In this document: positions 1 through 38,261 of the stretch, piece by piece
How positions within the stretch are numbered: position 1 is the stretch's first letter
How the letters are laid out: each line of letters starts with the position of its first letter
Assembly (NCBI GenBank): GCA_026985675.1
Contig: JALSPZ010000158.1
Coordinates: 1-38,261 of the forward strand
Reading direction: 5' to 3'
DNA: 38,261 nucleotides
DNA from: Flavobacteriales bacterium
GTDB taxonomy: Bacteria > Bacteroidota > Bacteroidia > Flavobacteriales > Flavobacteriaceae
Made by a program: the position numbers and the translations under genes
Notes under the pieces: generated by a model
Databases searched by the model: none
Seen by the model: the letters and a program-made list of their open reading frames with translations, nothing else
Told to the model about the DNA's origin: nothing

Positions 1-3000
1 CTGAACGGCGCCGATATCAATCACGATGGTATCCTCGAAGGAACCCTGGGAACCAACGGACTTATCAATGAATTGGAAACCGTACCCGATAGCGGGGTAA
101 TCAATTATACTATACAAAATACGGACGGCGATTCAAATCCCGATTATCTCGATACGGATGATGACAACGATTTAATCCCAACAACCGACGAACACCCCGA
201 TACCAACGGAAACGGATATCCCGACGATGCATCGGATACCGATAATGATACTATCCCCAATTATTTAGACCCCGACGACGACGGAGATGGTATTTATACA
301 CAATTTGAAGATATTACCTTGCCTAACAACTATCCTCAGGATGGAAATCCCCAAAACGACGATACCGATAATGACGGAATCCCCAATTACTTGGACCCTG
401 ACGATGATAACGATGGTGTATTAACAGTAAATGAACATCCCGATGATAACGGAAACCATGAACCCGAAGATGCATTGGATACCGATGGAGACGGAACCCC
501 TGATTATTTGGATCCTATTGACAATCCTTTTGACCACGATAACGATGGAATTGACGACAATGTAGATATAGATGACGACAACGACGGTATTCCCGATACA
601 GACGAATCCAACGGAATCGATCCTTTAACCGATGCCGATAATGACGGCATCCCGGTTTATTTGGATGACGATGATAATGATAATACGATTGGCGATAATA
701 ATGGACACGTAGAACCCTTGTATGATATTGATAACGACGGACAACCCAACCATTTCGATTTGGACTCCGACGGTGACGGATTATGGGATACAGCCGAATC
801 CGGACGACTTTCTGTCCCCGTAGGTATAGATGCCAATATGAACGGAATTTTAGAAGGAGATGTCGGATCGAACGGATTAATGGATAACGTGGAAACTTCA
901 CCCGATAGTGGAATTATAAACTACACCATACTTAATACAGACAACGACTTTTTTGCGGATTTCCTCGATAGAGACGATGATAATGACCATGTTCTAACAA
1001 CCAACGAACATCCCGATGATAACGGAAACGGCTATCCCGAAGATGCTTTGCATACCGATTTTGATGGAATTCCCAACTATTTAGATAGAGATGATGATGG
1101 AGACGGACTTTATACGGATTTTGAAGACATAGCACTCCCCAATAACTACCCCCAAGACGGAAATCCTATGAATGACGATACCGATTTGGACGGTATCCCC
1201 AATTACTTAGATGATGACGACGACAACGACGGAACACCTACAATCGACGAACACCCCGATGATAACGGAAACCACGAACCCGACGATGCAATAGATGACG
1301 ACAATGATGGAACCCCTAACTATTTGGACCCCTACGATACTAATCCCAACGACCACGACAACGATGGAATTGATGATGATGTAGATATAGATGATGATAA
1401 TGACGGAATTTTAGATACCGACGAATCCAACGGAATCGATCCACTAACGGATGCTGATAATGATGGTGTTCCGGTTTATTTGGATGACAATGATAACGAT
1501 AATACCGTTGGAGACAATAATGGACATATTGAACCCCTATATGATATCGATAATGACGGAATTCCCAATCATTTCGACTTGGATTCCGATAACGATACCA
1601 TCTTTGACGCCGTAGAATCCGGACAAACCACCGGAACCGATGCTAATTCAGACGGAATTTTGGAAGGACCTGTTGGTAATAACGGATTAGTAGATAATGT
1701 GGAAACAGCCGTTGATAGCGGAACCATAAATTATACCCTCCAAAACACCGATGGAGATTTCTTTAACGACTTTTTAGACAGAGATGACGATAATGACCAC
1801 GTCCTCACGCTCAACGAACATCCCGACGATAACACCAACGGATATCCCGACGACGCACTCGATACTGACAACGACGGCATCCCTAACTATCTGGATAATG
1901 ATGACGACGGCGATGGAATACTAACGCAATATGAGGATGTTCAATTACCCAACACCTATCCCGTTGATGGCAACCCTATGAATGATGATACCGATTTGGA
2001 CGGAATTCCCAATTACCTCGATGATGATGACGATAATGACGGTACACCCACTATCAACGAACAACCTGACCCTAACGGAAACCATGAACCAGAAGATGCA
2101 ATTGATGACGACAACGATGGAACCCCAAATTATTTGGATCCCCTTGATAATGTTCCCGATGACCATGATAATGATGGAATAAATGACAGTATAGACTTAG
2201 ATGATGATAACGACGGAATTCCGGATACAGATGAGTCAGGCGGAATTGATCCCTTAACTGATGCAGACAACGATGGCGTTCCTGTTTATTTGGACGATGA
2301 TGACAATGATAACACAATAGGAGATAATAACGGAATCGTTGAACCTGCATTTGATATTGACGGAGACGGAGTGCCCAATCACTTTGATACCGACGCCGAC
2401 GGTGACGGGTTGTTCGATGCTGCAGAATCAGGACAAACAACAGGTGTTGATTCCAATTCCGATGGGATTTTAGAGGGTGGTATTGGAAATAACGGATTGA
2501 TGGATAATGTGGAAACAAGTCCGGATAGTGGAACTATCAATTATACATTAATTAATACGGACAACGATAGCTTTTATAATTTCTTGGATACCGATGATGA
2601 CAATGACCATATTCCCACCGTAAACGAACATCCCGATGATAATCACAACGGATACCCTGACGATGCATTGGATACCGATACCGACGGAAATCCCAATTAT
2701 ATCGATAGAGACGATGACGGCGACGGAATTTTTACCGATTTTGAAGATATAGCTTTACCCAATAACTATCCCCAAGACGGAGACCCGACCAACGATGATA
2801 CCGACAATGACGGAATACCAAACTATTTGGATATAGATGATGATAATGATGGTATCAATACTGCTTTGGAACATGCAGATGATAATGGCAATCATGAACC
2901 GGAAGATGCTTGGGACACGGACAACGACGGTATTCCGGATTATTTAGATGATATAGATGGTATCGATAGTGATAACGACGGTATTCCCGATAGTGTAGAT

Positions 3001-5655
3001 ATAGATGATGACAACGACGGTATCCCCGATATTCGTGAATATAACGGAAATAACCCTATGGCAGATAACGATAATGACGGTGTTCCGGTATATTTGGATG
3101 ATAATGATGCAGACAACAGTATCGGTGATGACAATGGAACTGTTGAAATTGCTTGGGATTTAGATAATGACGGTATTCCCAATCATTTGGATTTGGATTC
3201 TGATGGAGACGGGCTTTTTGATATAGCTGAATCGGGACAAACATTGACAACCGATGCCAACCTAGACGGAAGAGCTGATGATAATGTCGGCACCAACGGA
3301 CTGGTAGATATATTGGAAACCGCTCCAGATAGTGGAAATATCAATTATTCAATTATGGATTGGGATAATGATACTTCTGATGATTTTACAGATTTTGACG
3401 ATGATAATGATCATATCCTTACCCAAAACGAACACCCCGACGACAACGGAAACGGATATCCCGACGATGCATTGGATACCGACAATGACGGTTATCCAAA
3501 CTATCATGATCGCGATGATGACGGAGATGGAATTTATACCGATTATGAAGATGTAGCTTTACCTCATACTTATCCGCAAGACGGAGATCCTACCAATGAC
3601 GATACGGATGCTGACGGAATACCCAATTACTTGGATGATGATGATGATAATGACGGAATTCTGACAATAAATGAACATCCCGACGATAATGGAAACCACG
3701 AGCCCGATGATGCTTGGGACTCCGATAATGATGGTATTCCCGACTATTTGGACGGAAACGACTACGATAACGATGGAATTTTGGATAATGTTGATATCGA
3801 TGATGACAATGACGGAATTCCCGATACAATTGAATCCGGCGGAATTGACCCCCTTACCGATGCCGACGGAGACAATGTCCCAGTATTTACAGATGATGAT
3901 GATAATGATCCGGCAATAGGAAATGATAACGGTATAGTTGAACCTGCTTTTGATTTTGACGGAGATGGACTGGCAAATCATTTAGACTACGATTCCGACG
4001 GAGATGGTTTGTATGACACCGTAGAATCCGGACGTTTAGATATTCCGGTAGGAACAGATACCAATATGGATGGTATGTTGGAAGGAAATGTTGGAACCAA
4101 CGGTCTGATGGATGATTTGGAAAATCCTGTGGATAGCGGCACACTCGTATTTACCATTCAAGATACTGATGGAGACGGAAATCCCGATTTCTTGGATTTG
4201 GATGATGATGAAGACCACGTCCCTACAACTGCCGAACATCCCGATGATAATAACAACGGATATCCCGACGATGCTTTGGATACGGATAATGATGGAATAC
4301 CTAATTATTTGGACAGAGATGATGACGGTGACGGAATTTATACCGATTTTGAAGATATAGAATTACCCAATAACTACCCGCAAGACGGTGACCCTACCAA
4401 CGATGATACTGACAATGACGGAATTCCCAACTATTTGGATAACGACGATGATAATGACGGAATCCTGACCATTGATGAACATCCCGATGATAATGGAAAT
4501 CATGAACCCGAAGATGCACTGGACTCAGATATGGACGGCATACCCGATTATTTGGATGACCAACTCAATGATAATGACGAAGATGGAATTTCGGATTATT
4601 ATGACCTTGACGATGATAACGACGGTATACCCGATACTGATGAATGCGGAGGTATAAATCCTTCCGCCGATAACGATAACGACTTCGTTCCGGCTTATTT
4701 GGATGACGACGATAATGACAATACTATTGGGGATGACAATGGTCAAATAGAACCTGGTTTTGATACCGATGGAGACGGCATTCCTAATCACTTCGACTTG
4801 GATGCAGACGGAGACGATTTATTTGATTTGGTAGAATCCGGGCAAACAACAGCAACTGATGCCAATATGGACGGTATGGACGATGGTAGTGTCGGAACCA
4901 ACGGTTTACCCGATGCTGTTGAAACCACACCGGATAGTGGAACAATCAATTATACTTTTCAAGATTCTGATACAGATACTATCTTTGATTATTTGGATAG
5001 TGATGACGACAACGACAATGTTCCTACTTTGATAGAACATCCCGATGATAATACCAATGGATATCCCGATGATGCTTTGGATACGGACGACGACGGTACA
5101 CCCGATTATTTAGATATAGATGATGATGGCGACGGCTTATATACAATATATGAAGATGTGGATATTCACAACAATTACCCACAAGATGGCGACCCGACTA
5201 ATGATGATACTGACGGAGATGGAACACCAAATTATTTAGATGATGATGATGACAATGACAATATTTTAACTATTGATGAACATGCAGATGATAATGGAAA
5301 TCATGAACCGGACGATGCCATAGATACAGATATGGACGGTATCCCAGATTATTTAGATGATAAAGATGATAGAGAATTAATTTTCTATAATGCTATTTCA
5401 CCCAATGGAAATGGAAAAAATGATTTTATGTTTATAGAAAATGTAGAAAAATATCCTGAAAATAAAATGATTATTGTTGATCGTTGGCAATATAAAGTTT
5501 GGGAAGGTAAAAACTATGATAATAATAATGTGAAATTTACAGGATTTGGAACTAATGGGAGAAAATTACCTTCAGGAACTTATTATTATATGTTCGAATA
5601 TAAAGAGGATGGTAAATGGAAAAACAAAGCCGGTTATTTATATATTTTAAAATAA
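1..5655 (+). CDS. Giant Asp-rich thrombospondin type 3-like Ca-binding repeat adhesin with gliding-motility/T9SS type B C-terminal domain; 5' end truncated by the window
   Basis: Frame 1 is open from base 1, and codons upstream of the listed Met (LNGADINHDGILEGTLGTNGLINELETVPDSG) match internal repeat units. Dense DxDxDGxxD loops. The C-terminus from about 5371 (RELIFYNAISPNGNGKNDFMFIENVEKYP...GTYYYMFEYKEDGK...GYLYILK) resembles the CHU_C/gliding-motility-associated C-terminal domain. Confidence 0.93.
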   Translation: MNGADINHDGILEGTLGTNGLINELETVPDSGVINYTIQNTDGDSNPDYLDTDDDNDLIPTTDEHPDTNGNGYPDDASDTDNDTIPNYLDPDDDGDGIYTQFEDITLPNNYPQDGNPQNDDTDNDGIPNYLDPDDDNDGVLTVNEHPDDNGNHEPEDALDTDGDGTPDYLDPIDNPFDHDNDGIDDNVDIDDDNDGIPDTDESNGIDPLTDADNDGIPVYLDDDDNDNTIGDNNGHVEPLYDIDNDGQPNHFDLDSDGDGLWDTAESGRLSVPVGIDANMNGILEGDVGSNGLMDNVETSPDSGIINYTILNTDNDFFADFLDRDDDNDHVLTTNEHPDDNGNGYPEDALHTDFDGIPNYLDRDDDGDGLYTDFEDIALPNNYPQDGNPMNDDTDLDGIPNYLDDDDDNDGTPTIDEHPDDNGNHEPDDAIDDDNDGTPNYLDPYDTNPNDHDNDGIDDDVDIDDDNDGILDTDESNGIDPLTDADNDGVPVYLDDNDNDNTVGDNNGHIEPLYDIDNDGIPNHFDLDSDNDTIFDAVESGQTTGTDANSDGILEGPVGNNGLVDNVETAVDSGTINYTLQNTDGDFFNDFLDRDDDNDHVLTLNEHPDDNTNGYPDDALDTDNDGIPNYLDNDDDGDGILTQYEDVQLPNTYPVDGNPMNDDTDLDGIPNYLDDDDDNDGTPTINEQPDPNGNHEPEDAIDDDNDGTPNYLDPLDNVPDDHDNDGINDSIDLDDDNDGIPDTDESGGIDPLTDADNDGVPVYLDDDDNDNTIGDNNGIVEPAFDIDGDGVPNHFDTDADGDGLFDAAESGQTTGVDSNSDGILEGGIGNNGLMDNVETSPDSGTINYTLINTDNDSFYNFLDTDDDNDHIPTVNEHPDDNHNGYPDDALDTDTDGNPNYIDRDDDGDGIFTDFEDIALPNNYPQDGDPTNDDTDNDGIPNYLDIDDDNDGINTALEHADDNGNHEPEDAWDTDNDGIPDYLDDIDGIDSDNDGIPDSVDIDDDNDGIPDIREYNGNNPMADNDNDGVPVYLDDNDADNSIGDDNGTVEIAWDLDNDGIPNHLDLDSDGDGLFDIAESGQTLTTDANLDGRADDNVGTNGLVDILETAPDSGNINYSIMDWDNDTSDDFTDFDDDNDHILTQNEHPDDNGNGYPDDALDTDNDGYPNYHDRDDDGDGIYTDYEDVALPHTYPQDGDPTNDDTDADGIPNYLDDDDDNDGILTINEHPDDNGNHEPDDAWDSDNDGIPDYLDGNDYDNDGILDNVDIDDDNDGIPDTIESGGIDPLTDADGDNVPVFTDDDDNDPAIGNDNGIVEPAFDFDGDGLANHLDYDSDGDGLYDTVESGRLDIPVGTDTNMDGMLEGNVGTNGLMDDLENPVDSGTLVFTIQDTDGDGNPDFLDLDDDEDHVPTTAEHPDDNNNGYPDDALDTDNDGIPNYLDRDDDGDGIYTDFEDIELPNNYPQDGDPTNDDTDNDGIPNYLDNDDDNDGILTIDEHPDDNGNHEPEDALDSDMDGIPDYLDDQLNDNDEDGISDYYDLDDDNDGIPDTDECGGINPSADNDNDFVPAYLDDDDNDNTIGDDNGQIEPGFDTDGDGIPNHFDLDADGDDLFDLVESGQTTATDANMDGMDDGSVGTNGLPDAVETTPDSGTINYTFQDSDTDTIFDYLDSDDDNDNVPTLIEHPDDNTNGYPDDALDTDDDGTPDYLDIDDDGDGLYTIYEDVDIHNNYPQDGDPTNDDTDGDGTPNYLDDDDDNDNILTIDEHADDNGNHEPDDAIDTDMDGIPDYLDDKDDRELIFYNAISPNGNGKNDFMFIENVEKYPENKMIIVDRWQYKVWEGKNYDNNNVKFTGFGTNGRKLPSGTYYYMFEYKEDGKWKNKAGYLYILK
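85..4929 (+). repeat. Six complete in-frame super-repeats of about 801-816 bp (267-272 aa)
   Basis: The recurring (P/V)DSGxIxYT block begins at 85, 901, 1711, 2521, 3325, 4129 and 4930. Unit lengths are 816, 810, 810, 804, 804 and 801 bp. A partial unit flanks each end. Confidence 0.9.
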
Positions 5656-6569
5656 TGAATAAAAAACATTTCATAACATTGCTAATCATTATGCTTAGCA
5701 CACTAAGCATACAAGCACAAGATTTTCCTCTGTTTACTCAATATATGTATAACAAAGGTGGAATCAATCCCGGCTATGTAGGGGTTGATGGTAGAATATC
5801 CGTAGCTGTTTTGCATCGGTCTCAATGGGTTGGAGTATCCGGAGCTCCCACTACATCCAATCTTTCTTTTCAATATCCTTTTGAGAAGGCAGCACTTGGA
5901 ATAGAACTTTCAAAAGATGATGCTGGACCTGTTTCCAAAATAATTGGAAAATTACAATTCGCCTATAATCTGGAATTAGACTATTTTACCTTTTTATCAT
6001 TAGGTGTCAGTGCAGGAATTTATAATCATGCTTTTGATTTAAATAAACTTACCATTAGAGACAATGAAAATATATTTACGGAAGATTATAATGCTATTAA
6101 TTTTGATGTAGGCATCGGAGCGTTTTTATATGCGGAAAATTGGTATTTGGGTGTTTCAACCCCTAATTTAAATTTACAAAAAGTGCATCCTAATAATGAA
6201 TATCAATTAGATAAAAGACTATTGCATGCTTATCTTATGGGAGGCTATAATATTGATATTTCACAACGAAGTGTCCTTCAACCTTCTTTTCTTATTAGAT
6301 ATGCTGACCAATTGCCAATTTCCGCTGAACTAAGTATAAATATGAAATGGAGCGAAACTTTAACCACTGGATTGGCATACAGATTCAATTCGGCATACAG
6401 TTTGCTTATAGGTATAAATGTAACTAGAAAATTACATATGGGATACGCTTTCGATTGGGATCAAAGTCGCTTTTACAAAACCAATTACGGTTCACACGAA
6501 GCTTTTATTAGATACTATTTATCCACCGAAGAAAATAGTGCAAGATTCCAATCACCCAGATTCTTTTAA
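5655..6569 (+). CDS. PorP/SprF family type IX secretion membrane protein
   Basis: QAQDFPLFTQYMYNKGGINPGYVGVDGRISVAVLHRSQWVGVSGAPTTSNLSFQYPF is typical of PorP/SprF. The ATG at 5655 overlaps the adhesin stop (TAATG), so the listed start at 5616 is probably too early. Confidence 0.92.
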   Translation: MNKKHFITLLIIMLSTLSIQAQDFPLFTQYMYNKGGINPGYVGVDGRISVAVLHRSQWVGVSGAPTTSNLSFQYPFEKAALGIELSKDDAGPVSKIIGKLQFAYNLELDYFTFLSLGVSAGIYNHAFDLNKLTIRDNENIFTEDYNAINFDVGIGAFLYAENWYLGVSTPNLNLQKVHPNNEYQLDKRLLHAYLMGGYNIDISQRSVLQPSFLIRYADQLPISAELSINMKWSETLTTGLAYRFNSAYSLLIGINVTRKLHMGYAFDWDQSRFYKTNYGSHEAFIRYYLSTEENSARFQSPRFF

Positions 6570-6579
6570 ACTTAAATTT

Positions 6580-8313
6580 ATGAATAAAAAAATATTTTAC
6601 ATATTAATAATCCTGCTACCCATAATGAGTTTTGGTCAGAAAGAAGTAAAAAAAGCCGATGAACTCTATGAAGGTTATGAGTATATCAAAGCACGGGATA
6701 TTTATTTAAAAGTTGCTAAAAGAGGATATGTATCAGGGTATTTATATAAAAAATTGGGAGATTCTTATTTTAAAACCGCTGATTACAAAGAGGCATTAAA
6801 ATGGTATGAAAAATTATTTAAATTAGGTGAAAACCCTGAACCTGAATACTATTTCCGTTATGCACAATGTTTAAAAGCTTCCGGCAAAAAAGAAAAAGGA
6901 AATGAATATTTACAAAAATATTATTCTTTGGTAGATGATAAATTCCGTTCCAACCAAATACAAAAAAAATCTTATATATTATATGATAATGATATTCCTT
7001 TGGAATACAGCAGTTATAAAATAGACAGTTTAAAAAATGTCAATACCGAATATTCAGATTTTGCACCGGTTATTTTCGGTAAAAAATTCATTTTTACTTC
7101 CGCAGGGCACTCACCTGTTGGATATAAAAAAAATTGGCAAAACGGACAACCTTATTTCGATTTATTTGAAGCTACCATAAATGCTCCGGACGACATCACC
7201 GGTATCAAACCCATAGGTGGAGATATAAATACCGAATACCACGAATCTTCTGCAACCTTTACTCCCGATGGAAAGACTATGTATTTTTCGCGCAATAGTT
7301 ATAAAAAAGCTGAATATTCGGATGCCAATCTAAGTAAATTAAAAATTTACAGAGCTGAAAAAATTGATGGCAAATGGAAAACAGTAGAAGAATTACCTTT
7401 TAACAGCGAAAATTATACTTTTACAAGTCCGGCGCTTAGCCCTGATGGAAAACGCTTGTATTTTGTATCGGATATGCCCGGAACCTTTGGAAATTCGGAT
7501 ATTTGGTATGTTGAAATTTATGATGATAACTCGTATAGTTATCCCCAAAATCTTGGACCTAAAATCAACACGACTGAAAGAGAAAATTTTCCTTTTGTTA
7601 CCAAAGACAAAATATATTTTACATCGGACGGACAATTGGGATACGGAGGTTTGGATATATTTGTCGCCGATTTGGATGAAAATGGTATGGTGGGAGATAT
7701 TTTAAATCTTGGCAAACCGATTAACTCACCTCAAGACGATTTCTCTTTTGCCATTACACCGGATGAAAAATATGGGTATTTTGCCTCCAACCGTAATAAA
7801 GACAAAACAAGAGACGATATTTATGTTTTCTACAAATCCAATGAAATTAAAAAAGGAGATGTTAAAGACCTTTTCTCTAAGATGCAAGAGAAAATTAAAG
7901 TTGCTATTCCTAAAAAAGAAGTTATTGTAGAAGGAAAAGATTTAGGTAAAATATTAAAACTTAAACCCATCTATTTTGAATACGGAAAATATGATATAGG
8001 TCCCAGAGCGGCAATTGAATTGGAAAAAGTTATAACCGTCCTTAGAAAATATCCTTATTTAAAACTGGATATTCGCTCACACACCGATTCCAGGAGTAGT
8101 GCCGAATTTAATTTAAAACTTTCCGAAAAAAGAGCACAAGCTACCAAAAAATATATCATTGATAGTGGAATTGACCCATCCAGAATAACAGCAAAAGGAT
8201 ACGGAGAAACCCAATTAGTTAACAAATGTAAAGACGGTGTTAAATGTACGGAAATGGAACACCGACAAAACCGAAGATCTGAATTTATTATAATAGATAC
8301 ATCTAAAAAATAA
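6580..8313 (+). CDS. OmpA family protein with N-terminal TPR-like region, PD40/WD40-like beta-propeller and C-terminal peptidoglycan-binding domain (PorE-like)
   Basis: Signal peptide MNKKIFYILIILLPIMSFGQ. PD40-like TFTPDGKTMYFSRN and SPALSPDGKRLYFVSDMPG. OmpA C-terminus YFEYGKYDIGPRAAIELEKV...DIRSHTDSRSSAEFNLKLSEKRAQATKKYIIDSGI...NRRSEF. Confidence 0.92.
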   Translation: MNKKIFYILIILLPIMSFGQKEVKKADELYEGYEYIKARDIYLKVAKRGYVSGYLYKKLGDSYFKTADYKEALKWYEKLFKLGENPEPEYYFRYAQCLKASGKKEKGNEYLQKYYSLVDDKFRSNQIQKKSYILYDNDIPLEYSSYKIDSLKNVNTEYSDFAPVIFGKKFIFTSAGHSPVGYKKNWQNGQPYFDLFEATINAPDDITGIKPIGGDINTEYHESSATFTPDGKTMYFSRNSYKKAEYSDANLSKLKIYRAEKIDGKWKTVEELPFNSENYTFTSPALSPDGKRLYFVSDMPGTFGNSDIWYVEIYDDNSYSYPQNLGPKINTTERENFPFVTKDKIYFTSDGQLGYGGLDIFVADLDENGMVGDILNLGKPINSPQDDFSFAITPDEKYGYFASNRNKDKTRDDIYVFYKSNEIKKGDVKDLFSKMQEKIKVAIPKKEVIVEGKDLGKILKLKPIYFEYGKYDIGPRAAIELEKVITVLRKYPYLKLDIRSHTDSRSSAEFNLKLSEKRAQATKKYIIDSGIDPSRITAKGYGETQLVNKCKDGVKCTEMEHRQNRRSEFIIIDTSKK

Positions 8314-8344
8314 CAATTTTATATAAAAAATAACAATTTTATAT
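8305..8344 (+). repeat. Perfect 20-bp tandem duplication spanning the OmpA-like gene stop codon
   Basis: AAAAAATAACAATTTTATAT occurs at 8305-8324 and 8325-8344. Confidence 0.9.
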
Positions 8345-8434: not shown

Positions 8435-10840
8435 ATGAAAAAATTTATTCTATTATTTCTTATCTTATTATCGATTAATTTCGTACAGGCACAAGTAGCC
8501 ATAAACAATTCAGGAAATGCAGCCAACACTCATGCTATGTTGGATATTTCTTCTAATACCAAGGGAATATTAATTCCCAGATTTACTACGACAGAACGGA
8601 CAAATTTAGCAGGTTCTTTGACAATAACGGAAGATGGACTTACAGTATATGACACAGACACTAAAAGCTTTTGGTATTGGGATGGAACACAATGGGTACA
8701 ATTAGGAGCAGGTATCAATACTACCGAAGATAAAGATTGGTTTAAAGTCGGAACAACAAATGCGCCAACAGATATCAACGATGCCATGTATCATATAGGT
8801 AATACCGCTATTGGTAAAAACACTGCTGATTATAAATTGGATATTTATGAAAATGCTTCAAATAATGTAATATTTGTAAATCAAGATAATCCTGATGAAA
8901 CTCAAACACTACGAATTGCAGGTACTTTTATGAGTGAAGGACCTACACCAACTTCAACCGGAAAAATTGGTGTTTATACCGGATTAGGAGGTAATGTGGG
9001 TAATGGAACCGGATATGCTTCTTTAACCGGATATGAAACTGATATTAATATAAGCGGTGATACCAATAAACATGCATACGGTTTTGTTTCCGATATCACC
9101 GGTGATAATGATGGAACCCAAATAGGCGTTTACAATTATCTACACGATACCGGAGGAAATGGAGCAAGATATGGAATTAACAATTATATGATGGGAAGTT
9201 CAAATGGTATTATATTTGGATATTATAACTTATTAAATTATAGTGGAGACGGTATTAATTTTGGACATTACTATCGTATAGCAGGATCTGGAAATGGAGT
9301 ACAATATGGAGGTTTTAATAGAATTCTAAATTCCGGTAATGGCAAACAAGTTGGAACAGTAAATGAAATCAAAACAATCGGTGCTTCTGCCCATGTTGGC
9401 ACAATTAACTCATTAGGAGCGGGGATTACAGAATCAAATCCTTCAGAAATAGTTCCCGTTCAAGGAGATAGTGATGGCAAAAGAGTAGCAAACATTAATC
9501 TTATAGCAGGAGATGGAGATGGTTTGCATTTAGGAGAAACCAATTTGGTAATAAGTTCAGGAAGTGGCAATCATGCCGGGAGTATAAATCTTTTGGGATA
9601 TGAACCGGTATCCGGAAATTCTACTAATACTACCGGAATACATGTTGGTATTATCAACAACCTGGCTGATATCGGCAATAGAATACGAACCGGTTCTATT
9701 AATTTAATTGGAGCTAAAATAGATTTAGCTAACCCTACCCAACCTATACCTGTAAGTGGAGATAGTGATGCTAAAAGAATCGGGACTGCTAATACCATTA
9801 TGGGAGATGGAAACGGAATACATTTGACCGAGTCCAATGTAATTCTTAGTACAGGAGATGGAAAACACATGGGAATTTTAAATGTTATCGGTTATGACTA
9901 TATCAATCACGTAGCTACAAATACTGCCGGTGATCATTTTGGAACTGTAAATAACCTGAATGATTCAGGTCCCGGTATACACAATGGAACTTTTAATGTT
10001 CTAGGATATGATTTATCAAATAATACGGAAGTCAACAGTGATGGAATTCATATCGGTTCCAATAACTTTTTAGCCGGAGGTCAAACGGGAAATATGCTTC
10101 AAGGTTTGCAAATAGCCAATTTAAATACCATTATTGCTAAATCTGATGCTTCAAATTTAATCTATGGAGGCAGACAATACGGAAATTTAAATATTATCGG
10201 AAGAGATTTATTAAATAACCCAGCCACTTTCCTTAATAACGGAGATGGTGACCATTTCGGAACCTATAATGAAGTTTCGGATTTAGGAAACGGAACACAT
10301 GTAGGTTCATACAATGTTGTTAATAATAATGGTGACGGAAGACATATAGCAGTTTATGGTGAAGTGGATGATGATGATAATACAGCTTGGGCAGGAATGT
10401 TTAAAGGATATACCACTTCAAAAAACCAAGTGTCCACAATAAATCTATGGAGTTCTAACGAATATAATGTTTGGTCAAATAATAATGATGATTTAAACCT
10501 TGTGGAAGCCGGTTTTAATCCTGTTAACTACCAATTGGATGGTCTTGTGGAAGTTAAAGTTATTGTTCGAGTTTCCAGTGCTTCCGGATCAGGAAACAAA
10601 TTTAAATTACATGCCATCAAAAACGGCAGTGATGTAACTCCTATAACTGATGCAGATAATTGGACTTGGACTGAAACCAGTACGGGAAAAAATATAGTTG
10701 AGTCTGAATGGAAAGCTTGGAATGCCGGAACGGATGTTTGGGAATTACATCTAACTGGTATTACTGATAATACTTCTTCAATGAAAATTACAAATGTATA
10801 TGTTATGATCAGACCCTTTCAATTGATAGGGAAACCTTAG
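8435..10840 (+). CDS. Secreted repeat protein with 'GDGxHxGxxN' repeats; candidate beta-solenoid or tail-fibre-like surface protein
   Basis: Signal peptide MKKFILLFLILLSINFVQAQ from the internal ATG at 8435. N-terminal 'MLDISSNTKGILIPRFTTTERTNLA...GLTVYDTDTKSFWYWDGTQWVQLG' module common in Bacteroidota surface proteins. Many G-D/N-G-x-H-x-G-x-x-N repeats. No recognised T9SS sorting domain. Confidence 0.8.
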   Translation: MKKFILLFLILLSINFVQAQVAINNSGNAANTHAMLDISSNTKGILIPRFTTTERTNLAGSLTITEDGLTVYDTDTKSFWYWDGTQWVQLGAGINTTEDKDWFKVGTTNAPTDINDAMYHIGNTAIGKNTADYKLDIYENASNNVIFVNQDNPDETQTLRIAGTFMSEGPTPTSTGKIGVYTGLGGNVGNGTGYASLTGYETDINISGDTNKHAYGFVSDITGDNDGTQIGVYNYLHDTGGNGARYGINNYMMGSSNGIIFGYYNLLNYSGDGINFGHYYRIAGSGNGVQYGGFNRILNSGNGKQVGTVNEIKTIGASAHVGTINSLGAGITESNPSEIVPVQGDSDGKRVANINLIAGDGDGLHLGETNLVISSGSGNHAGSINLLGYEPVSGNSTNTTGIHVGIINNLADIGNRIRTGSINLIGAKIDLANPTQPIPVSGDSDAKRIGTANTIMGDGNGIHLTESNVILSTGDGKHMGILNVIGYDYINHVATNTAGDHFGTVNNLNDSGPGIHNGTFNVLGYDLSNNTEVNSDGIHIGSNNFLAGGQTGNMLQGLQIANLNTIIAKSDASNLIYGGRQYGNLNIIGRDLLNNPATFLNNGDGDHFGTYNEVSDLGNGTHVGSYNVVNNNGDGRHIAVYGEVDDDDNTAWAGMFKGYTTSKNQVSTINLWSSNEYNVWSNNNDDLNLVEAGFNPVNYQLDGLVEVKVIVRVSSASGSGNKFKLHAIKNGSDVTPITDADNWTWTETSTGKNIVESEWKAWNAGTDVWELHLTGITDNTSSMKITNVYVMIRPFQLIGKP
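9404..9991 (+). repeat. Two adjacent 294-bp (98-aa) in-frame modules within the secreted repeat protein
   Basis: INSLGAGITESNPSEIVPVQGDSDGKRVANINLIAGDGDGLHLGETN... (9404-9697) aligns without gaps to INLIGAKIDLANPTQPIPVSGDSDAKRIGTANTIMGDGNGIHLTESN... (9698-9991). Confidence 0.85.
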
Positions 10841-10873: not shown

Positions 10874-11653
10874 TTATAAAAATTTCAAAATCAAAAACCA
10901 AAAGATTGGCAGAGCTTCAATCCAAAATGCCGTATAATAAAAACTTTTATTATTATCGGATCTGAAACAGAGTATTATAGAAATTAAAATCAGCATATTA
11001 CTCAAAACAAAAACTCTTTCCGTATCAAAAATGAAATAATTCATCGTTAGAAATAATGTTAATAAGACTAAATAAATAATTTGTTTCTTGTGAGGATATA
11101 ATTGAGGTAATGTTTTTAAATCGGGCTCATCAATTAAAATATCTCTTTGATCGAAACTTAAAGTCAGCAGTAATATATACAAAAACACATAAATAAAATG
11201 AATGAATAATTTTATTGTTACAAGTTTTGGGTCAAAAGGCAACACCGTTACCAACATTGCCCAAATAAAAGCCACCGTTAATAATTTTATTATACCATTT
11301 TTTCTTAATTGTGTTTGATAAGCAATCGTAATCAGACTCAAAGGAATAAGGATAATTTGTGTAAAATAATCCAATTTAAAATAATAATATAAAGTTGAGA
11401 AAAAACCAAAAATTAAAACCCCATAAAAAAGAAATCGATAATCATAAAAATAACTTTTAAAAGTCTTTCTATTGGATGACAAATCTATCAAACGAATAAA
11501 ACCATAAGAAAAAACGGTAGACCAAAATAAAAATAACAGATAATTATTATTCTTTTTCAAACCAAAAATCAAATAAGTTGCTACTATTGAAAAAGCCACA
11601 TGAAAATTGAGAAAAATATAGAGATTAATTAATTTAATAAAATATTTTTTCAA
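10874..11653 (-). CDS. Polytopic integral membrane protein, function unknown (possibly distant UbiA-like)
   Basis: 259-aa ORF with many hydrophobic segments; no distinctive catalytic motif recognised. Confidence 0.7.
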   Translation of the reverse strand: MKKYFIKLINLYIFLNFHVAFSIVATYLIFGLKKNNNYLLFLFWSTVFSYGFIRLIDLSSNRKTFKSYFYDYRFLFYGVLIFGFFSTLYYYFKLDYFTQIILIPLSLITIAYQTQLRKNGIIKLLTVAFIWAMLVTVLPFDPKLVTIKLFIHFIYVFLYILLLTLSFDQRDILIDEPDLKTLPQLYPHKKQIIYLVLLTLFLTMNYFIFDTERVFVLSNMLILISIILCFRSDNNKSFYYTAFWIEALPIFWFLILKFL

Positions 11654-12903: not shown

Positions 12904-14742
12904 ATGAAAAAATTAGCATTACTTTTATTGATAATAGTTTTTCAACTATCAGCACAAATACCAGCAGGATATTATGATAATGCCCAAGGATTAACCGGCT
13001 ATCAATTAAAAACGGCATTAAAAAATATTATTTCCAATGGTCACCAAGACCAAGGATATGATGCACTATATACTTGTTACCAAGACAGTGATACCGATAA
13101 TTATTATGAAAATGACCAAACGGTTTTGGATATGTATTCCGAAAAACCTAATGGACCCGATGCTTACGAATATCAACACATATCCGACAAGTGCGGAAAT
13201 TATAGTGGTGAAGGGGCTTGTTATAATAGAGAACATCTGGTCCCGCAAAGTGTATTCGGTTCGGCTTCACCGATGAAAAGTGATGCTCATTTTGTTGTCC
13301 CTACCGATGGTTATGTAAACAACAGAAGAAGCAGCTACGCTTTTGGAGAAGTATCCAACCCTACTTGGACTTCCACCAATGGATCAAAGTTAGGACCCAA
13401 CAGTACACAAGGTTATACCGGAACTGTTTTTGAACCTATTGATGAATTTAAAGGAGACATTGCGCGTATGCTATTTTATTTTGCTACACGATACGAAGAT
13501 CAAGTTTCTGGTTGGAGTCATGCCATGTTAAATGGCTCTAGCGATCAGGTATTTAGTAATTGGTTTTTAGACATATTACTCTCATGGCACTATAATGATC
13601 CGGTTAGCCAACGTGAAATTGACCGCAACAATGCAGTCTACAACTTTCAACACAACAGAAACCCGTATATAGACCACCCCGAATGGGTAGCACAAATTTG
13701 GGATCCTACGCCAGACACCGTTCCTCCTACTGCACCGACCAATTTAAGTGCACAAAATATTACAGATACTTCAGTAACTTTAAATTGGACTGAAGCTACT
13801 GATAATGTTGGCGTTGAATCTTATCAAATTTTTCAAAATGCTAACCTTATCGGAGATACTAGCTCTACTACATATGATGTTTTTAATCTTCAAGCCAATA
13901 CAACCTATCAATTTTGCATTAAAGCTATTGATGCATCCGGAAATATTTCCAATTGTAGTAATACGATTACTATCACAACCGGTTCAGCTCCTTATTATGT
14001 TATAAATGAGGATTTTACTAACTGTCCCAATATACAATTTTTTACTATTAGTGAAGCCAGTGACAAAGATTGGACATGTATTTCACAATATGGAGAAAAC
14101 AATTCGCCTGCTATACAGATAAATGGATATCAAGAAAACGAGCCCAGCAAAGACTGGTTAATTACCACTCAAAAAATAAATTTTGATAATTATACTAATG
14201 AAAAACTTTCGGTCTTTTTAGTATCCAAATACGGCAGTACCCCATTAGAACTGGTCTATTCATCCGATTATGACGGAGGAATGACTCCTTCTGCTTATAC
14301 ATGGACAAGTGTACCTAATATAAATATACCTTTACCCAATGGAAGCACACAAGTTGAGTCTATCATAACCGATGAGGACATTAGTCCTATTTCTGGAAAT
14401 GTTTATCTGGCATTCAAATATTTTTCTAATGGCTCACCAACTAGATGGACAGTTGATAGTTTTAAGATTAAAGCCGATAATTCTTCTACCATCCAAAACA
14501 TTACAGATAATAAAGTTCATATTTTTCCTAATCCTCTTTATGCTTCTCAAAAACTTCATATAAACCTTCTTAATCATCAAATCATAGAAGAAATAGAAAT
14601 CTTTGATATCTCGGGAAAAGTAATTCTATCAATGAAAACAAATGCTCAACAGATTAATCTATCAAGGCTAAACCCTGGTTTATATCTATTAAAAATCAAA
14701 ACAAATGAAGGCATAGCTTTAAAAAAATTAATAATAAAATAA
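12904..14742 (+). CDS. Secreted endonuclease I (EndA/NucM-like) with FN3-like domain and T9SS type A sorting domain
   Basis: Signal peptide. YNREHLVPQSVFG...MKSDAHFVVPTDGYVNNRRSSYAFGEV matches endonuclease I. FN3-like TAPTNLSAQNITDTSVTLNWTEATDNVGVESYQIFQN. C-terminus IFPNPLYASQKLHINL...VEIFDISGKVILSMKTN...GLYLLKIKTNEGIALKKLIIK is Por secretion-tail-like. Confidence 0.93.
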   Translation: MKKLALLLLIIVFQLSAQIPAGYYDNAQGLTGYQLKTALKNIISNGHQDQGYDALYTCYQDSDTDNYYENDQTVLDMYSEKPNGPDAYEYQHISDKCGNYSGEGACYNREHLVPQSVFGSASPMKSDAHFVVPTDGYVNNRRSSYAFGEVSNPTWTSTNGSKLGPNSTQGYTGTVFEPIDEFKGDIARMLFYFATRYEDQVSGWSHAMLNGSSDQVFSNWFLDILLSWHYNDPVSQREIDRNNAVYNFQHNRNPYIDHPEWVAQIWDPTPDTVPPTAPTNLSAQNITDTSVTLNWTEATDNVGVESYQIFQNANLIGDTSSTTYDVFNLQANTTYQFCIKAIDASGNISNCSNTITITTGSAPYYVINEDFTNCPNIQFFTISEASDKDWTCISQYGENNSPAIQINGYQENEPSKDWLITTQKINFDNYTNEKLSVFLVSKYGSTPLELVYSSDYDGGMTPSAYTWTSVPNINIPLPNGSTQVESIITDEDISPISGNVYLAFKYFSNGSPTRWTVDSFKIKADNSSTIQNITDNKVHIFPNPLYASQKLHINLLNHQIIEEIEIFDISGKVILSMKTNAQQINLSRLNPGLYLLKIKTNEGIALKKLIIK

Positions 14743-36121: not shown

Positions 36122-37033
36122 ATGACAACAAAAAATTACGAATATTTCAGTTATGAAGTGGATGGATTAATAATTGAATCCAAACATCCGGATAAGTTAT
36201 ATTGGCCTGAAGCCGGTGTTACAAAAAAAGATTTAATGGATTACTATAATAAGATTGGGGATTATATGATGCCATTTTTAAAAGAAAGACCGCTTACTTT
36301 ACATTTTTTTCCTTATGGAATACATAAATTTTCTTTTTATAAACGAGATTATGATATAAAAGCTCCCGAAGAATTTATAAAAACATATCTTTATGAGGAA
36401 GCTACACAAGATAAAGTTATGCGTGTGCCTGTAGTGAAAAACAAAGCCGGATTGGTGTATTTAGCCTCACGCGGTTGTCTGGAGATTCATGCTTGGGGGT
36501 CAACTTATCCGGATTTTGAGCTTCCTGATTTAGCTATTTTTGATTTGGATATTGGGGGGCATGTTCCATTTGAAAAAGTTATAGAAACAGCTAACATTTT
36601 GAAACAAGAATTGGATCGTAGAAATATTAAAGCTTTTCCCAAAACTTCCGGTGGAACCGGTATGCATGTATATATCCCTTTAAAAAAAATATACACATTT
36701 GATCAAGTAAGAGAATGGACTTTGGAGGTAGCTTTATTTCTATCAGAAAAATATCCCAATTTAATCACTACCAATAAACAACAAAGAAAAACTCATAGTG
36801 GAGATAAGGTAGTGTTAGATTATTTGCAAAATGCCATCACTAGAAATACGGCTGCTCCATATACTCCAAGAGCTAATCCGGAAGCAAAAGTTTCCACTCC
36901 ACTCCAATGGGAAGAAATTGAAAGAGGTAATTTTACTCCTTCTGATTTTACTATTAAAACTATTCCCGAAAGATTAAAAAACATCGGAAACCCTTTTGAA
37001 TATTTATTTAAAAATCCTCAAGTATTAAACTAA
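36122..37033 (+). CDS. Stand-alone LigD-type polymerase/primase (AEP superfamily)
   Basis: HPDKLYWPEAGVTKKDLMDYYNKIGDYMMPFLKERPLTLHFFPYGIHKFSFYKRD, LAIFDLDIG (catalytic Asp pair), KTSGGTGMHVYIPL, VVLDYLQNAITRNTAAPYTPRANPEAKVSTPLQWEEI. No ligase domain. Confidence 0.92.
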   Translation: MTTKNYEYFSYEVDGLIIESKHPDKLYWPEAGVTKKDLMDYYNKIGDYMMPFLKERPLTLHFFPYGIHKFSFYKRDYDIKAPEEFIKTYLYEEATQDKVMRVPVVKNKAGLVYLASRGCLEIHAWGSTYPDFELPDLAIFDLDIGGHVPFEKVIETANILKQELDRRNIKAFPKTSGGTGMHVYIPLKKIYTFDQVREWTLEVALFLSEKYPNLITTNKQQRKTHSGDKVVLDYLQNAITRNTAAPYTPRANPEAKVSTPLQWEEIERGNFTPSDFTIKTIPERLKNIGNPFEYLFKNPQVLN

Positions 37034-37913: not shown

Positions 37914-38261
37914 ATGAAAAAATTAGTTTATTTATTCGTTTTAGGATTTATGTTTAACAACATGTATGCGGTCTCAACATTCAGACCTGCATGGAAATTC
38001 ATGGATGAACCGGTTAAACTCAGTATTAGAGGGGTCGATTTTTTTATTTTTCCTTCCGGAGACTTTGATTTTAATACACACCAAAGAAATAATCCATATT
38101 ATTATAATCCGGGAGCATACGGAGTGCGTATAGAAAAAGACAGGTATGGAAAAATTCGTAGAGTTGGAAATGTTTTTATCAATTATAACAGATATGGACA
38201 AGTTCGCAGAATAGGGAATGTTTTTATTCAATATAATAACGAAGGATTTGTAAGAAAAATA
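37914..38261 (+). CDS. Secreted short-repeat protein, truncated by the window end
   Basis: MKKLVYLFVLGFMFNNMYAVSTFRPAWKFMDEPVKLSIRGVDFFIFPSGDFDFN...RYGKIRRVGNVFINYNRYGQVRRIGNVFIQYNNEGFVRKI. Signal peptide, no stop before the window edge. Confidence 0.8.
   Translation, partial: MKKLVYLFVLGFMFNNMYAVSTFRPAWKFMDEPVKLSIRGVDFFIFPSGDFDFNTHQRNNPYYYNPGAYGVRIEKDRYGKIRRVGNVFINYNRYGQVRRIGNVFIQYNNEGFVRKI
38142..38237 (+). repeat. Two 48-bp (16-aa) tandem units
   Basis: RYGKIRRVGNVFINYN (38142-38189) and RYGQVRRIGNVFIQYN (38190-38237). Confidence 0.85.

Follow-up and report, generated by a model that had tools for sequence, protein, structure and literature searches.

The mosaic adhesive trimer (MAT) fibres of Bdellovibrio bacteriovorus, which serve in prey recognition, form a superfamily whose members combine a conserved, β-rich N-terminal domain of ~130 residues with a trimeric, intertwined fibre displayed at the cell surface. 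TNF-like tips are found in two solved MATs (Bd2439 and Bd2734), and glycan binding has been shown for MAT fibres (PMC10769870). The Photorhabdus TNF-like lectin PLTL forms trimers that pair as a hexamer and hold the sugar between protomers; trimers are also the usual state of other TNF-like proteins (PMC12914763). In T9SS systems with type B CTD adhesins, PorP-like proteins bind the type B CTD proteins, and PorP is in turn a binding partner of PorE (PMC9143113).

Here, we describe a Flavobacteriaceae gene that most likely encodes an exported three-chain fibre, composed of a common base, a shaft of 15-residue repeats and an exchangeable, lectin-like tip. It is contained in the window, which is the whole stretch of DNA analysed (38,261 nucleotides). 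A first-pass annotation of the same DNA had recorded an uncharacterised secreted repeat protein. This observation was partly confirmed, in that both the protein and its repeats are genuine and their description needed correction.

The gene product and its N-terminal region

The open reading frame spans positions 8435–10840 (+), with an ATG at 8435 and a stop codon ending at 10840, and encodes 801 residues. The protein was searched against Pfam and NCBIfam, neither of which returned a match. Its N-terminal region was divided as follows:

8435–8491 (+), residues 1–19: signal peptide lacking a lipobox cysteine, read from the sequence, alike in seven homologues, with a putative cleavage site
8492–8710 (+), residues 20–92: N-terminal base module, LDxSSxxKGxLIPR...WDGTxW, the most conserved module
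8711–9049 (+), residues 93–205: linker, DWFxxGTTxxPTDINDxMYHxGNxAIGKNT, from the alignment and a low-confidence model

The start of the protein, MKKFILLFLILLSINFVQA followed by Q, resembles a signal peptide and is, by inspection, similar in kind in all seven full-length homologues, which bears out the earlier assignment; cysteine is absent from every one of the seven. The N-terminal module described at that time was likewise recovered as MLDISSNTKGILIPRF...FWYWDGTQWV. This base is 59–78% identical among the full-length homologues, and on its own it matches dozens of Bacteroidota loci with differing C-termini. Residues 52–90 gave a weak match to a minor-tail family in PHROGs (phrog_4120).

The shaft

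The central part of the protein comprises the following features:

9050–10384 (+), about residues 206–650: shaft of 22 scored 15-residue units, GxGxHxGxxNxI, from offset statistics, profile and model
9404–9697 (+), residues 324–421: first 98-residue block, 46/98 identical to the next block
9698–9991 (+), residues 422–519: second 98-residue block, with the same spacing series as the first

A 15-residue repeat profile trained on seven homologues located 22 units in the window protein and 17–22 in the others, with the consensus G-[N/D]-G-x-[H/R/Q]-[I/V/Y/F]-[G/A]-x-x-N-x-[I/L/V] and spacings that are mostly 15 and otherwise 16–30. Within residues 201–660, the mean BLOSUM62 self-score peaked at offsets 98 (0.48) and 15 (0.36), whereas the best offset in any of 300 shuffles scored no higher than -0.22, so the repeats are above chance. 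The Gly/Asn/His repeats reported in the first-pass annotation do extend over about residues 206–650, but their basic unit is 15 residues and the histidine is not invariant. The 98-residue modules had been called exact, which is true of their spacing alone: two blocks of five units each, with the series 30 + 15 + 15 + 23 + 15 = 98, stand 98 residues apart, but their sequences coincide at fewer than half of these positions. The third, partial copy proposed at 9992 did not hold up, being identical at 11 of 98 positions in register, and the general 15-residue pattern is all that continues there. At the DNA level, direct repeats are short, and none exceeding 39 nt was found.

In the full-length model, residues 214–312 and most later units show a strand of ~10–11 residues and a turn of ~4 residues per 15-residue unit, at moderate confidence (pLDDT mostly 45–79). 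The three repeat units included with the tip in a second model were of low confidence. A classical β-solenoid is not demonstrated by this model; units of one strand and one turn could equally be arranged as a meander or belong to a single chain of an intertwined trimer.

Position 5 of the repeat is H in 62%, Q in 17% and R in 17% of the units, and H, Q, R and K are mixed there in distant relatives. This variability weakens the earlier idea of a metal-binding histidine ladder. A periplasmic or otherwise non-adhesive protein that binds metal along its repeats would suit the regular histidine, as well as the absence of a T9SS signal described below. We consider it very improbable, given that Q or R replaces H in a third of the units and that the TNF-like, lectin-type tip and the S74-ending relatives point to the cell exterior. 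A relative at another locus (L127, 1501–3438) has 25 matched units at nearly strict 15-residue spacing, of which 12 have H and 11 have Q at position 5; by eye the two often alternate, hinting at a higher period of 30 residues.

By sequence, neither the shaft repeats nor the tip yielded anything useful in Pfam, NCBIfam, PHROGs or the PDB sequences, and no paper on the 15-residue repeat was found in the open-access literature.

The C-terminal tip

The protein ends in a single further module:

10433–10837 (+), residues 667–801: TNF-like tip of ~135 residues, from the model, Foldseek and sequence relatives on other shafts

Residues 667–797 were modelled as a confident all-β domain (pLDDT ~89–96 nearly throughout), whose predicted structure is a TNF-like jelly roll, so the distinct C-terminal domain noted previously is upheld. 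A Foldseek search of the tip model against the PDB returned PLTL as the best match (E 4.2e-4, probability 1.00), followed by birnavirus VP2 domains, ExsFA, the phage lambda gpJ central fibre and the lectin domain of Burkholderia BC2L-C. The leading PDB matches include, besides TNF-like lectins, trimeric proteins of TNF/C1q-like type. Whole-domain TM-scores against the PDB lectins were modest (TMt 0.47–0.52, rmsd ~7–8 Å), with about 12–14% identity to TNF-like lectins in the structural alignment. Among predicted viral proteins, the tip matched phage and giant-virus entries, several of which bear a collagen-like annotation and one that of a gpJ fibre domain. The full-length model retrieved the same group of structural matches with weaker E-values; its top-ranked hit, the tail fibre of phage 7-7-1 (E 6.8e-3, probability 0.21), was set aside.

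A sequence profile of the tip (A3) gave at best weak, scattered matches against the PDB sequences. When run on 398 genomes of the order, it found the window alone. This disagrees with a single-sequence search, which had hits in 8 of 400 genomes of the family, and for this reason no prevalence figure was derived from the profile. Because PLTL forms trimers and other TNF-like proteins usually do, we infer that the tip trimerises, and by analogy with TNF-like lectins it most likely binds a glycan. The first-pass annotation had named a match to a characterised family and predicted disorder as outcomes contrary to its reading; the tip does fit a known fold, but no family accounts for the repeats, nor is their region predicted to be disordered.

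Mosaic relatives and tip divergence

Six full-length relatives, 44–68% identical, were found in MAGs labelled Flavobacteriales or Flavobacteriaceae, and there are many partial ones besides. The family is a mosaic, in which one N-terminal module is joined to several shafts and several ends, including the TNF-like tip, an S74 chaperone and others. Part-by-part blastp resolved three modules and identified base and repeats with an S74-type end (genomes G017, G225 and G099), base and tip with another shaft (G338 and G220), base and tip without the 15-residue shaft (G154), and base with C-termini unrelated to any of these (further genes of G001 and G002, the two same-genus genomes). Peptidase_S74, a tailspike chaperone, was confirmed by Pfam in L049 (G017), L053 and L125 (G225), and was read from the sequence in G099; the S74-chaperone fibres with the same 15-residue repeats occur in other genera. 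Relatives of the tip are placed on other shafts or lack a shaft. Two loci, L043 (1219–3963, -) and L044 (3482–6523), carry the same base and tip with YadA-head-like repeats as the shaft, and L044 has two such genes in tandem; Pfam sees this resemblance weakly, and in L043 (PF05658, E 0.011) it is below the cut-off. The suggestion of a phage-fibre-like fold is the part of the first-pass interpretation that fits best, with the same 15-residue repeats in S74-ending relatives and the TNF-like lectin fold of the tip. As a whole, that interpretation is partly supported.

The tip also diverges differently from the remainder of the protein. Identity between the fibres of L057 and L059 is 89, 80 and 78% in their first three segments (to residue 345) but falls to 55% for the distal shaft and 42% for the tip, whereas the tips of L059 and L054 are 62% identical. 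In the tip tree, L059 groups with L054, the window and L058, apart from L057. The N-terminal half strongly rejects a grouping of L059 with L054 (p 5e-75), and the AU test on the discordant tip history is borderline (p 0.051). On this evidence, exchange of tips is likely rather than proven, and at that p-value the pattern may also reflect fast divergence without exchange.

In several pairs the tip is the least conserved module, with 33–43% identity compared with 59–65% for the base. These figures bear on whether the protein could instead be a structural coat or matrix component of a surface layer or biofilm, with a TNF-like domain that just trimerises or caps and has no specific ligand. ExsFA, from the Bacillus exosporium, ranks with the closest structures to the tip and speaks for such a role, with which one long repetitive protein per genome would be in keeping. 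Nevertheless, low conservation of the tip and its probable exchange or replacement independently of the shaft are what a recognition tip would show, rather than a simple cap, and we regard the structural role as unlikely.

Genomic neighbourhood and export signals

The fibre gene follows a cassette for a CHU_C adhesin and PorP- and PorE-like proteins, and its site is bounded downstream by a small gene on the opposite strand:

1–5655 (+): large CHU_C (type B CTD) adhesin-like protein (PF13585, E 1.8e-18), 5′ end cut by the contig
5616–6569 (+): PorP/SprF-like protein (PF11751, E 9.5e-65)
6538–8313 (+): PorE-like protein with TPR, PD40 repeats and an OmpA domain (Pfam)
10874–11653 (-): 259-residue protein at the downstream edge of the conserved site, fast evolving, with no Pfam match

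The order CHU_C–PorP–PorE–fibre is retained in L047, L055, L057 and L059. The gene for the 259-residue protein and RsmB are found downstream in L047, L055 and L057; in L054 the downstream half of the site is seen. Across genomes having the site, the PorE-like protein is 79–94% identical, and it is 82–94% identical where the fibre is 44–67%. The 259-residue protein is 37–60% identical in L042/L055, L047, L054 and L057, and 43% in L140, a locus of G154 that has the whole site without the fibre; G154 is of the same genus as G344, the source of L042/L055. A perfect two-copy tandem repeat of 20 bp (TAAAAAATAACAATTTTATA) at 8304–8344 spans the stop codon that ends the PorE-like gene, as well as the AT-rich gap upstream of the fibre gene. 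Elsewhere in the window, a protein of the LigD primase-polymerase type (PF21686, E 6e-72) is encoded at 36122–37033, and a 48-bp tandem repeat in two copies occupies 38140–38236 at the contig end.

The conserved gene order would be expected if the fibre were an accessory subunit of the adhesin complex, attached through its N-terminal module to PorP, PorE or the adhesin itself so that adhesion would be a shared function, and the PorP interactions cited above provide a precedent for such docking (PMC9143113). However, the cassette occurs without the fibre in L140, the fibre occurs elsewhere with no cassette nearby in L056, and PorE-like genes are present in 133 of 151 genomes, the other inspected loci having no base module within 1.5 kb; the S74-type locus L126, found by another route, is an exception. 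A subunit role of this kind is accordingly improbable. In its strict form, the idea that the fibre is a fixed fourth member of the PorP/PorE cassette was rejected in view of L140 and the PorE-like loci without a base module. For these reasons, the fibre is an accessory gene at a conserved site that can dispense with it.

The first-pass annotation had found no T9SS sorting signal, and this stands: the window protein was searched in Pfam and NCBIfam for Por_Secre_tail, CHU_C and the NCBIfam equivalents, and no such domain was matched. These signals are detectable in the window, since Pfam finds CHU_C in the first gene and Por_Secre_tail in a nuclease at 12904–14742. The latter, an Endonuclease I with fn3 and T9SS Por_Secre_tail domains, is conserved downstream of the fibre site. 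Beyond the signal peptide, no export signal is known for the fibre.

The neighbourhood also bears on whether this is a prophage or phage-derived tail fibre that still serves a phage particle, as the S74-ending relatives, the weak phrog_4120 match of the base and the viral structural matches of the tip might suggest. The signal peptide and the conserved, cellular neighbours already contradict this, tblastn against 50,697 phage records gave no match, and viral contigs gave three weak hits, all confined to the N-terminal region. We therefore consider a phage function exceedingly improbable.

Proposed mechanism and significance

We favour, with a probability of about 0.7, an exported trimeric fibre with its base at the producing cell, a β-shaft of ~22 units and a ligand-binding, TNF-like trimeric knob. 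The protein would be exported via Sec and displayed at the surface, where the N-terminal module common to the family would hold the fibre at the producing cell. About 22 fifteen-residue units would build a long β-shaft, and the TNF-like domain would trimerise as a knob and bind a ligand outside the cell, in all likelihood a glycan. By combining one base with different shafts and tips, lineages could change their adhesion targets. The modular make-up, the repeat unit, the tip fold, the rapid and discordant divergence of the tip and the conserved but dispensable site beside the cassette are supported by computation; the trimer, surface display, anchoring by the base, the export route and the glycan ligand are inferred. 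The moderate confidence of the shaft model, the low confidence of the repeat units in the second model, the modest TM-scores of the tip and the borderline AU test weigh against this fibre model.

More tentatively, and with considerable doubt, Bacteroidota may possess a large superfamily, as yet without a name, of mosaic trimeric fibres that belong to the cell and would act in the manner of Bdellovibrio MATs. One N-terminal module would be combined with interchangeable shafts (15-residue GxGxHxGxxN or YadA-head-like) and tips (TNF-like, S74 and others), and the fibres would reach the surface by a route requiring no known T9SS signal, perhaps with docking on the neighbouring PorP/PorE-like complex in this lineage. 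If the fibre model is correct, it defines the base, 15-residue shaft and TNF-like tip modules of a Bacteroidota recognition-fibre family that is unnamed in current libraries, and it provides, for ligand tests, a naturally occurring set of fibres that are related but whose tips have diverged. It also raises the question of how exported proteins without a T9SS signal reach the Bacteroidota surface.

Comparison with known systems

Of the T9SS systems with type B CTD adhesins, PorP and PorE, the locus has three upstream genes of that kind (PMC9143113), but the fibre lacks a CTD and does not regularly belong to such cassettes. With YadA-type trimeric autotransporters, the family shares the YadA-head-like repeats of some same-tip proteins (L043). 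The window protein differs in having another repeat and no membrane-anchor barrel, its C-terminus being a tip and not an anchor, and neither YadA_head repeats nor a C-terminal YadA anchor was matched in Pfam at E up to 10. Like tailspike and tail-fibre proteins, some relatives that share its base and 15-residue repeats end in Peptidase_S74, but the window protein has no S74 domain in Pfam and no phage context. The predicted jelly roll of the tip resembles PLTL and the N-terminal domain of BC2L-C, which are small or two-domain soluble lectins, whereas here the tip ends a repetitive protein of ~800 residues.

The MAT fibres share with the window protein a signal peptide, a conserved N-terminal module, a repetitive β-shaft and diverse C-termini, including S74 and non-S74 groups, as well as variable tips on one base and, according to the predicted structure, a TNF-like tip (PMC10769870). 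The window protein comes from another phylum, its trimeric state and surface display are putative, and the 15-residue GxGxHxGxxN shaft does not appear in the parts of the MAT description that were covered (PMC10769870). The MAT fibres, with their TNF-like tips and their S74 and non-S74 groups, are its closest working model; the window protein is a candidate member of their superfamily and is best read as a trimeric surface adhesin that would work like Bdellovibrio MAT or phage fibres. Our verdict is a probable mosaic trimeric recognition fibre, whose type of architecture is known and which is unannotated in current family libraries.
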